Positions 36,387 through 38,477 of a stretch of 64,000 nt of DNA are shown one piece after another. A program made the position numbers and the translations under genes. Source of the DNA: Opitutales bacterium (lineage in GTDB: Bacteria; Verrucomicrobiota; Verrucomicrobiia; Opitutales; UBA953); the NCBI GenBank assembly GCA_030725715.1, contig JANRFG010000018.1, positions 152,485 to 216,484 on the forward strand. The letters are read 5' to 3'. The notes beneath the pieces are model-generated. The model did no database searches. It worked only from the letters and a program-made list of their open reading frames with translations, and was not told where the DNA came from. The stretch's first letter is position 1; each line of letters opens with the position of its first letter.

Positions 36387-37799
36387 TCAGATGGCTTGGG
36401 CGAACTTCTTGATGATGCCGCCGAAGGCGCCGTTCGAGAAGAAGACGACGCAACGCGGCGACTTGTCCGCTTGCACGAGAGCGGTGAGTTCGGCGAGCAA
36501 GGCGTCGTTCGAAGCCGGGGCGAACCCCTTCCGTCCGGCCGCCGTGATCGCCGCGGCGACGCCGGCGCTGTCGAAGCGTTCCTCGCCAAGTTTCTCGGCG
36601 CGATGGGGCGGAGCCAGGAAGACCTCATCGGCCTTCTTGAGCGCCTCCCGGAATGCGTCCTGCATCACCTTACGGGCGGCGGTGTTGCTACGCGGCTCGA
36701 AGCAGGCGACGAGACGGTGCTGCGGATAGCGGGCGCGCAGGGATTCCAGCGTCAGGTCGAGGGCGGTCGGATGATGGCCGAAATCCTCGATCACCGTCAG
36801 GTCGGGACGGTCGACCAGCACCTGCTGGCGACGCTGCACGCCTTGGAAGGAGTCGAGCGCCTCGAGCCTCAGCTTGGTCGGATCCCGGGCGTCGAGGAGG
36901 AGGCCAGCGGAGACGGCGGCCATGGCGGCGTTACGGGCGTTGAAGAGGCCCGGCAGGGCCCACTTCACCCTGCCCCACTCCTTGCCCTTCCAGAGCAGCG
37001 TGAAGGAGGAGCCAGTGGGCGATTCCTTGAAGTCAGCGATGACGGCGTCGTTGCCGGCGCCCGTGCCCACACGGATGACCGGAGCCCAGGCGACGTTCTT
37101 CACCAGGCCGACGACGTTGGCGTCATCGCCGTTGGCGACGATCGCGCCGTCGCGCGGGACGATGCGGATCACGTGCGCGAACGTACGCAGGACGTCATCG
37201 AGGTCGCGGAAGATGTCGGCGTGATCGAACTCGCAGTTGTTGATCGCGAGGACGTGCGGCAGATACTGGATGAACTTGCTGCGCTTGTCGAAGAAGGCCG
37301 TGTCGTATTCGTCGCCTTCGATGACGAAGGGGCCGCCCTGCTGGCCGGGGTGGGAGGAGTCAGGCAGGTCGCGCGGGACGCCGCCGACGAGCCAACCCGG
37401 CTCGGTGCCGTTGGCCTTGAGCAGCACCGCGGCCATGCAGGTCGTGGTGGTCTTACCGTGGGTGCCGGCGACGACGACGTTGCGGCGTTCGTTCAGCAGA
37501 CGGGTGCGCAGAAGTTCCGGGAGCGAAACGTAGGGCTGCGTGCGGGCTTCGAGCAGCCACTCCACTTCGGGGTGTCCGCGGGAGGCGACGTTACCGACCA
37601 CGACCAGGTCGGGCTTGAGCCGGGCGAGACGTTCGGCGGACCAGCCTTCCAGGATGTCGACGCCCGCGCCGCGCAGGTGGTCGGACATCGGCGGGTAGAT
37701 GCCCGTATCGGACCCCATGACCTCGTGACCCAAGGCGCGCATCAGCAAGGCGGCATTACCCATCGCCGTACCGCAGATGCCCATGAAGTAAATGCGCAT
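36387..37799 (-). CDS. mpl: UDP-N-acetylmuramate:L-Ala-gamma-D-Glu-meso-DAP ligase Mpl
   Basis: Peptidoglycan-recycling ligase that attaches recovered tripeptide to UDP-MurNAc. The 470 residues begin MRIYFMGICGTAMGN, the Mpl variant of the Mur ligase N-domain; the ATP loop is AGTHGKTTTTCM, and the EGDEYDTAFFDKRSKF segment is characteristic of Mpl and not MurC. The C-domain has FGHHPTALDLTLESLR and CFEPRSNTAAR. Presence of Mpl implies meso-DAP peptidoglycan and turnover. An intrinsic terminator ends 7 nt before the ATG, so expression may depend on readthrough. Confidence 0.93.
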   Translation of the reverse strand: MRIYFMGICGTAMGNAALLMRALGHEVMGSDTGIYPPMSDHLRGAGVDILEGWSAERLARLKPDLVVVGNVASRGHPEVEWLLEARTQPYVSLPELLRTRLLNERRNVVVAGTHGKTTTTCMAAVLLKANGTEPGWLVGGVPRDLPDSSHPGQQGGPFVIEGDEYDTAFFDKRSKFIQYLPHVLAINNCEFDHADIFRDLDDVLRTFAHVIRIVPRDGAIVANGDDANVVGLVKNVAWAPVIRVGTGAGNDAVIADFKESPTGSSFTLLWKGKEWGRVKWALPGLFNARNAAMAAVSAGLLLDARDPTKLRLEALDSFQGVQRRQQVLVDRPDLTVIEDFGHHPTALDLTLESLRARYPQHRLVACFEPRSNTAARKVMQDAFREALKKADEVFLAPPHRAEKLGEERFDSAGVAAAITAAGRKGFAPASNDALLAELTALVQADKSPRCVVFFSNGAFGGIIKKFAQAI

Positions 37800-38077
37800 G
37801 GGGCAGATAAAAGCCCTCGGCGGCCCGAGGGCGAGAAACTTAGGCGGCCGGTCATCCGCCTAAACAGGAGGACCCCGGCTACCTTGCGGCGGCCGGGGTC
37901 CGGTACCTACTTTGACTGTGCTGGCTTGGCTGACGTTGTCTGTTGCCTGACTGATGGTCCGTTACTTTCTCGGCCTGACTGGCTTTCCATCTGTTTTCAC
38001 CGACTTCCGGCCTGACTGACTTCGACCTTAACCGACTGACCAGTACTCACCGACAACCGGCCGGCACGATACCGTCC
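37800..38077 (-). ncRNA. Candidate structured RNA or cis-regulatory leader between hpf and mpl
   Basis: A 278-nt spacer, lower in GC than its surroundings, with no open frame of note. On the minus strand, read from the hpf stop: a repeat-rich half (38060-37912) with three copies of CAGTCAGGC and two of GTCGGTGA, then three clean hairpins. Their arms are GGACCCCGGC/GCCGGGGTCC (37901-37870), TTAGGCGG/CCGCCTAA (37863-37840) and the terminator stem at 37832-37813. It could be the 3' UTR of hpf, a separate small RNA, or the leader of mpl. No known RNA family was recognised. Confidence 0.5.
37807..37832 (-). terminator. Intrinsic terminator immediately upstream of mpl
   Basis: On the minus strand GCCCTCG (37832-37826), loop GGCCGC, CGAGGGC (37819-37813) and TTTTATC form a strong terminator. 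Its T-run ends 7 nt before the mpl ATG. The only Shine-Dalgarno-like bases (GAGGG) lie in its 3' arm, 14 nt from the ATG. Confidence 0.75.
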
Positions 38078-38437
38078 TTACGCCGCGCGTCCCAGGTCGC
38101 CCAGGTCTGTCGGATGCGGATGATTCCTTTTCTCCTTATCCAGGCGATGGCGGCGGCGAAGCTGGCGATCGACCTTATCGATCAGAATATCGATGGATTT
38201 GTACAGGTCGTCCGACTCCTCCCGGACGACGATGTCCGGGCCGGGAATCTCCAGCCTGATCTGGGCCCCGAACTCGCGACTGTGGTCGCTGCAGCGGGTG
38301 TGGACGAGTTCGACGAGCACGCGGATGATCCGCGGGTTGTGGCGCAGCAGTCTTTCGACCTTGGCGCGCACCGTTTCCTTCAGGGCGTCGGTGAGGTCCA
38401 GATGGACCCCGGTCACGACGATCGGAGCACTTGTCAT
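38078..38437 (-). CDS. hpf: Ribosome hibernation promoting factor (short HPF/YfiA type)
   Basis: Binds the 30S decoding region and keeps ribosomes inactive in stationary phase. The 119 residues begin MTSAPIVVTGVHLDLTDALK, with the basic segment VRAKVERLLRHNPRI, and the ESDDLYKSIDILIDKVDRQLRRRHRLDKEK helix typical of the family. The dimerising C-terminal domain of long HPF is missing. An ATG at 38533 in frame would overlap the divergent SDR gene, so the ATG at 38437 is preferred. Confidence 0.9.
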   Translation of the reverse strand: MTSAPIVVTGVHLDLTDALKETVRAKVERLLRHNPRIIRVLVELVHTRCSDHSREFGAQIRLEIPGPDIVVREESDDLYKSIDILIDKVDRQLRRRHRLDKEKRNHPHPTDLGDLGRAA

Positions 38438-38477
38438 GTGTGTTGTGTTTTGGGGGGTGACGTGAGACTCTGCGCCC

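Follow-up and report, generated by a model that had tools for sequence, protein, structure and literature searches.

The spacer between the ribosome-hibernation gene hpf and mpl in an uncultured freshwater member of the Opitutae carries a conserved structured RNA domain in the 3′ untranslated region (UTR) of the hpf mRNA. This domain, called the rod here, is a single long imperfect hairpin that lies downstream of the hpf stop codon and ahead of the intrinsic terminator of the gene. Computational analysis establishes its position, its conserved pairing, the selection acting on it, its strand, its taxonomic range, and its gain and loss. It is a previously unlisted conserved RNA of a freshwater Verrucomicrobiota group, and would join the hpf and raiA 3′-end RNAs that are known in Enterobacteria and Staphylococcus aureus. 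We infer that hpf and the rod are co-transcribed, and that the rod might be released, bind a protein, and affect hpf or other genes.

Locus and gene context

The source genome is about 1.93-1.94 Mb in 37 contigs (95% complete) and was read as separate stretches. The stretch analysed here, hereafter the window, comprises 64,000 nucleotides. Names among the close relatives include UBA953, UBA957, UBA7397 and BS6/BS8/BS10. On the minus strand, hpf is followed by a gap of 278 nucleotides and then by mpl, and the features of this region are as follows.

38078 to 38437, minus strand: hpf coding sequence, a short HPF of 119 amino acids (Pfam PF02482 Ribosomal_S30AE, 1.4e-19)
37914 to 38076, minus strand: the rod, a single long imperfect hairpin of about 163 nucleotides whose helices of 2-6 bp are separated by purine-rich internal loops
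37989 to 38004, minus strand: apical hairpin of the rod, GUC-G-GU-GAAA-AC-A-GAU (final GAU is GAC in most relatives)
37870 to 37901, minus strand: hpf intrinsic-terminator hairpin (hairpin 1), with a perfect 10-bp stem and a T-rich tract after it
37840 to 37863, minus strand: second hairpin, supported in only part of the window's own clade
37806 to 37835, minus strand: mpl promoter-like element, composed of CTCGCC (37830-37835), a 17-nucleotide spacer and TTTTAT (37807-37812), and enclosing hairpin 3 (37813-37832)
36387 to 37799, minus strand: mpl (UDP-N-acetylmuramate ligase family), with three Mur ligase domains

As the preliminary description had stated, the gap runs for exactly 278 nucleotides from the hpf stop to the mpl start (37800-38077) and contains no open sense-strand reading frame. 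The sole long open reading frame that overlaps it is the mechanical antisense frame of mpl. The gap had also been described as low in GC, and it is lower than its flanks, but only modestly so, at about 0.56 in the repeat-rich part versus 0.58-0.73 in most neighbouring stretches.

Within the genus, our comparisons draw on 48 loci in 47 genomes at which hpf and mpl adjoin. Of these genomes, 34 carry the rod (35 loci) and 13 lack it. Its carriers form clade A (22 genomes, including that of the window), clade B (3) and clade C (9), and hpf lies immediately upstream of the rod in every one of them.

Two other sequence features were recorded along the way. Upstream of the hpf start codon (window 38438-38462) is an AC-rich stretch, CCAAAACACAACACAC, that lacks a Shine-Dalgarno sequence and is kept across most of the genus. 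In addition, short (GGGGTA)3-4 runs occur at six places in the window's own genome (L224:10134, L224:17917, L230:11621, L312:10135, L319:15875 and L324:18073), and by their sequence these are potential G-quadruplexes.

Architecture of the rod

The second base past the hpf stop codon is the first of the rod, which closes about 163 nucleotides further on. The repeat-rich half of the gap is therefore one long hairpin, which the preliminary description had missed. Both single-sequence and alignment folding give one hairpin in all clades. Its 44 conserved pairs are distributed over short helices, mostly of GUC/GAC, that are interrupted by purine-purine mismatches. There are about 14 internal loops or bulges, the modal helix is 3 bp, and no helix is long. 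Among opposed bases in the symmetric loops, 81% are purine-purine, mostly A-G. Period-4 GTC/GAC runs are present, and there is no long conserved unpaired seed. The apical hairpin is paired in 97-98% of cells across clades, and changes from GC to AU and from UA to CG keep its pairing.

The repeats that first drew attention to the gap are all where they had been reported. Three copies of GCCTGACTG(A/G), which reads CAGTCAGGC on the minus strand, lie at 37945, 37973 and 38010, and two copies of TCACCGAC (GTCGGTGA on the minus strand) lie at 37997 and 38047. They are the GUC and GAC halves of the short helices of the rod. The clustering of CAGTCAGGC is non-random, because three of its seven copies in about 1.94 Mb sit in the gap. 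GTCGGTGA is frequent in the genome (327 copies). The suggestion that the repeats might be protein-binding or antisense sites needs revision, in that they are arms of the rod, which may bind protein, and as antisense sites for hpf they show no excess of pairing. An 8-nucleotide match between rod and hpf coding sequence (GUCGGUGA/UCACCGAC), spotted by eye, was likewise set aside, since the duplex energy is no better than that of shuffled rods.

Three inverted repeats with perfect arms had also been noted in the gap. The arms of 10 bp (37870-37879/37892-37901) and 8 bp (37840-37847/37856-37863) stand as described, but the third pair (37813-37820/37825-37832) measures 8 bp, where 7 had been stated. 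Across the genus, neither hairpin 2 nor hairpin 3 is conserved. The second is retained, with varying sequence, in about half of clade A and is absent from clades B and C. The third has an 8-bp stem in most of clade A, is lost or altered in clades B and C and in rod-less genomes, and ends 13 nucleotides before mpl.

Covariation, selection and strand

Folded singly, the 35 rods have a mean z score of -3.4 relative to dinucleotide shuffles, and the window's own copy folds weakly alone (z -0.8). Alignment folding yields z scores of -4.6 for clade A, -5.3 for clade C and -3.7 for all sequences, with none of 100 shuffles as good. In the alignment fitted to the model, 21 of the 44 pairs have changed on both sides and yet remain paired, giving 69 two-sided cells versus 22.3 +/- 3.6 in shuffle tests, which ignore the relatedness of the sequences. 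Out of sample, clades B and C alone give 36 two-sided cells versus 12.3.

A fitted alignment favours its own structure, and the count was redone on a structure-free MAFFT alignment. There, 88.2% of cells are paired and two-sided cells number 52, versus 25.1 +/- 3.6 in shuffles (0 of 500 as high). Sliding the partner lowers this count to 18 or fewer. Pairs that show at least one two-sided change are, in this alignment, no more numerous than the shuffles allow (11 versus 9.4, 104 of 500).

Much of the covariation arises between clades. Between clades A and B, 41 of the 44 pairs are kept, with two compensatory changes (UA to CG and GC to AU), four wobble changes and three broken pairs. Within clade A alone, two-sided changes are few and not significant (3 pairs, 31 of 500 shuffles). 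Conservation of stems in relatives that carry mpl, which had been put forward as a way to check the region, is found for the rod, whose pairs are kept with compensatory changes across three diverged clades.

The rod is also conserved in sequence within clades, where its identity is 0.86 versus 0.64 at fourfold sites of mpl, and it is the more conserved of the two in 231/231 and 36/36 pairwise comparisons. The spacer between the terminator and the mpl promoter-like element has an identity of 0.62 in clade A and 0.75 in clade C. Fourfold sites of hpf match the rod at 0.86, which means that some of the constraint could be a regional effect. Within the rod, variation in paired columns is about 2.5-fold lower than in unpaired columns (p = 2e-5 and 6e-6, values that are optimistic because the sequences are related).

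We also observed that the synonymous sites of hpf codons 1-50 (window 38288-38437) are nearly frozen, being 0.90-0.97 identical in clade A and up to 1.0 in clade C, versus about 0.67 for mpl. This might reflect a second, overlapping signal. The same codons were considered as a partner for the rod and rejected, because synonymous conservation is partly raised in rod-less genomes too and is not tied to the rod.

An imperfect palindrome carrying repeated motifs could conceivably be a DNA-level site, such as a cruciform or a set of protein-binding repeats, rather than an RNA. We consider this very improbable, both because the rod is flanked by the stop codon and the terminator of hpf and because the pairing exceptions on the hpf strand are G-U and not A-C. 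Counts of non-Watson-Crick exceptions are 52 G-U versus 12 A-C cells in one tally and 36 versus 4 in another, which fixes the RNA on the hpf strand. The proposal that a new RNA element lies on the 3′ side of hpf is upheld, in the form of a conserved, covarying and structured RNA on the hpf strand that belongs to no Rfam family.

Distribution, gain and loss

Spacers that carry the rod are 259-299 nucleotides in length (34 genomes), whereas rod-less spacers are 99-127 nucleotides (13 genomes). In the short layout, about 20-30 nucleotides past the hpf stop there is a terminator hairpin and its T-rich tail, followed by the stretch that precedes mpl. The long spacers have the same two parts, with about 160 nucleotides added between the hpf stop and the terminator. 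No rod was seen behind hpf in four other genera of the family, several of which have a terminator straight after hpf.

A covariance model built from clade A alone matches clade B with E values of 1e-24 to 8.5e-21 and clade C with values of 5e-11 to 0.004, in both cases over its full length and at the same place, and it has no match in any of the 13 rod-less genomes. The model finds one rod copy per genome, at one place; a second match in one genome (G039; 16 bits, E 0.5) was treated as chance. Two genomes have two hpf-rod loci on different contigs (L077 and L091 in G023; C58 and C18 in G054), explained either by duplication or by a mixture of strains in the assembly. When the window's own genome was scanned by purine-mismatch count (about 40% covered), other G-rich segments scored equally high, and the score does not discriminate rods.

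In a tree of mpl sequences, rod-less species are basal in the genus, and clades A, B and C fall into one group with a few rod-less species, a group inside which node support is weak. The simplest reading is one gain of the rod followed by two or three losses, and such losses would make the rod dispensable.

All carriers have the rod at one fixed place, after the stop codon and before the terminator. This would fit a purely cis-acting domain of the hpf 3′ UTR, which might stabilise the message, block 3′ exonucleases or insulate mpl from read-through, and which would never exist as a separate RNA. In S. aureus, decay of the hpf mRNA begins at its 3′ end (PMC11347170). However, 13 relatives manage with the terminator alone, and a conserved 163-nucleotide rod seems excessive for a simple block. 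We judge an exclusively cis-acting role somewhat unlikely, while regarding it as a serious alternative.

The model search covered 177 genomes of the order. Beyond the genus, its matches were confined to tandem (GTCNGACN)n arrays and a single additional weak one, in family f21. A pattern search of 273 genomes found these arrays in four genera of f21 only, with 2-53 pattern matches per genome, and never in the family of the window. Examples in two f21 genomes, G223 and G074, are L361:85-178, L362:1501-1648, L363:1501-1595 and L364:13-99, all apparently intergenic. GTCNGACN is a palindromic 8-mer, and the arrays resemble the rod in folding into 3-bp GUC/GAC helices separated by 1x1 mismatches. 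Unlike the rod, the arrays are near-perfect and present in many copies per genome. Descent of the rod from such arrays was considered and rejected, because they are confined to another family and fold alike by construction; the resemblance is an analogy only.

These arrays nevertheless bear on the idea that the rod is a functionless old insertion, simple-repeat or palindromic in nature, whose folding follows from its repeat unit. The period-4 GTC/GAC runs of the rod agree with this idea, as does the fact that arrays of another family in the order fold into the same type of rod. Yet no (GTCNGACN)n arrays were found in the genus or family of the window, and only a single rod copy occurs per genome, at one place. 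The rod is, moreover, far more conserved than the adjacent spacer and the mpl fourfold sites, with paired columns evolving more slowly. A functionless insertion is improbable in our estimation.

The hpf terminator and the probable mpl promoter

The hpf terminator hairpin is located at the same place in genomes with and without the rod. In a relative, genome G005, a near-identical hairpin, GGACCCCGG..CCGGGGTCCTC, occurs at L011:430-475, downstream of the apparent end of an rRNA operon. Judged from this hairpin, it looks as if a single terminator sequence were reused across the genome.

At 47 of the 48 loci, CTCGC is followed after 17 nucleotides by an A/T-rich hexamer that ends 6-8 nucleotides ahead of the ATG. 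The remaining locus (G025) fits the promoter-like spacing if it is read from its upstream CTCGCC. CTCGCC is a non-standard -35 hexamer, and most near-matches in a genome-wide scan for CTCGCC-N17-TTTTAT resemble coding sequence and form no clear promoter class. From its spacing and placement, the bipartite element is probably the mpl promoter and would yield a leaderless mRNA. Inspection of the alignments by eye revealed no conserved candidate for a rod promoter inside the 3′ end of hpf.

These observations do not support two earlier interpretations of the gap. The third hairpin had been taken for an intrinsic terminator, but its stem is mostly confined to one clade and lies inside the 17-nucleotide spacer of the promoter-like motif. 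The gap had also been proposed to act as an mpl-controlling leader. Such a 5′ leader, or a riboswitch, would be expected upstream of mpl on the same strand, where the rod indeed lies. However, the hpf terminator intervenes between rod and mpl, and the promoter-like element of mpl is present in genomes with and without the rod; the 13 genomes that have mpl without a rod all retain it in the last ~40 nucleotides of the spacer. There is no room for an mpl leader, because TTTTAT ends 6-8 nucleotides from the ATG. Control of mpl by the rod thus seems extremely improbable.

Comparison with known RNAs

A scan of the window against Rfam 15, at curated and lax thresholds, placed the rod in no family. 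Only tRNAs were found, and the best lax match (E 0.18) was far below threshold. This agrees with the preliminary description, which had recognised no known RNA family in the gap. The 6S RNA (RF00013) of this genome was considered and dismissed, as it lies on another contig (C8:20085-20248), and no tmRNA was called in the window. A literature search for small RNAs of Verrucomicrobia found none.

The raiA RNA motif is a structured, multi-branched RNA that occurs upstream of raiA in other phyla. It resembles the rod in being structured and associated with a hibernation-factor gene, but the rod is downstream of its gene and unbranched.

A close parallel is with RaiZ of Salmonella and Escherichia coli, a small RNA that RNase E cleavage produces from the 3′ end of the raiA mRNA as species of 160 and 122 nucleotides; it depends on ProQ and uses a single-stranded spacer to repress hupA (PMC5391140, PMC9438474). 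Both RNAs have a parent gene of the HPF/RaiA family and are 3′-end RNAs that extend to an intrinsic terminator, and their sizes are similar, with about 165-215 nucleotides predicted for the RNA that carries the rod. Location between the hpf stop and the terminator is found in 34 genomes. In contrast, RaiZ spans the last third of the coding sequence, whereas the rod is wholly behind the stop codon. RaiZ has a long single-stranded spacer, a feature that the rod, which is almost entirely paired, lacks. A search for ProQ (PF04352) found no match in the 95%-complete host genome, with a positive control from E. coli.

A second parallel is with S. aureus, in which hpf has an unusually long 3′ UTR with a terminator, where the mRNA is trimmed by YhaM, and in which an 89-nucleotide small RNA, S302, covers the hpf terminator (PMC11347170). 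This locus shares with that of the rod a long hpf 3′ UTR with an intrinsic terminator, and a small RNA is reported from it. Unlike the rod, S302 is 89 nucleotides in length and covers the terminator in a different phylum, and the section on hpf describes no rod (PMC11347170).

Such precedents raise the possibility that the rod is a trans-acting, base-pairing RNA like RaiZ, excised from the hpf mRNA at its 3′ end to repress other mRNAs. The family of the parent gene is the same and the size is similar to that of RaiZ from raiA (160/122 nucleotides; PMC5391140). S. aureus hpf, with its long 3′ UTR and the S302 RNA at its terminator, offers further precedent (PMC11347170). However, RaiZ uses its long single-stranded spacer and ProQ, and the rod is almost wholly paired. 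The sequence of the rod drifts between clades as its shape is kept, neither ProQ nor Hfq was found in the genome, and pairing of the rod to hpf itself shows no excess. We therefore view a RaiZ-like mode of action as unlikely.

Proposed role of the rod

The reading that we prefer, and to which we assign an even chance of being correct, is that the rod forms a 3′ module which binds a protein, resists nucleases and determines how long the hpf mRNA lasts, and/or persists as a released RNA. The rod would be transcribed with hpf, from just behind the stop codon to the hpf intrinsic terminator. It would then bind a partner protein, resist nucleases and set the lifetime of the message. In addition or instead, a released RNA of roughly 165-215 nucleotides might outlast the decaying coding part. 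Expression of hpf, which is associated with starvation, could in this way be linked to the partner protein.

Protein binding and nuclease resistance are favoured over seed pairing because the shape is kept while the sequence drifts, because there is no long conserved single-stranded seed, and because neither Hfq nor ProQ has a match in the window's own genome (95% complete). The shortness of its helices would, in addition, protect the rod against RNase III.

A different protein-based role would be that of a decoy or autoregulatory site for HPF or another rRNA-binding protein, by which HPF or ribosomes would titrate the hpf message or stabilise it. A long RNA with purine mismatches might resemble ribosomal RNA helices, and it would be located on the message of a protein that plugs the decoding centre. 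We hold this version to be quite improbable.

The architecture of the rod is an unusual one, with its ~14 internal loops, modal helix of 3 bp and 81% purine-purine oppositions, in a host with no detected Hfq or ProQ. The genus also provides a natural experiment, as the hpf-mpl gene order is common to rod-bearing and rod-less close relatives. A third case, in Verrucomicrobiota and structurally unrelated to the others, would suggest that hibernation-factor genes repeatedly acquire 3′-end RNAs.
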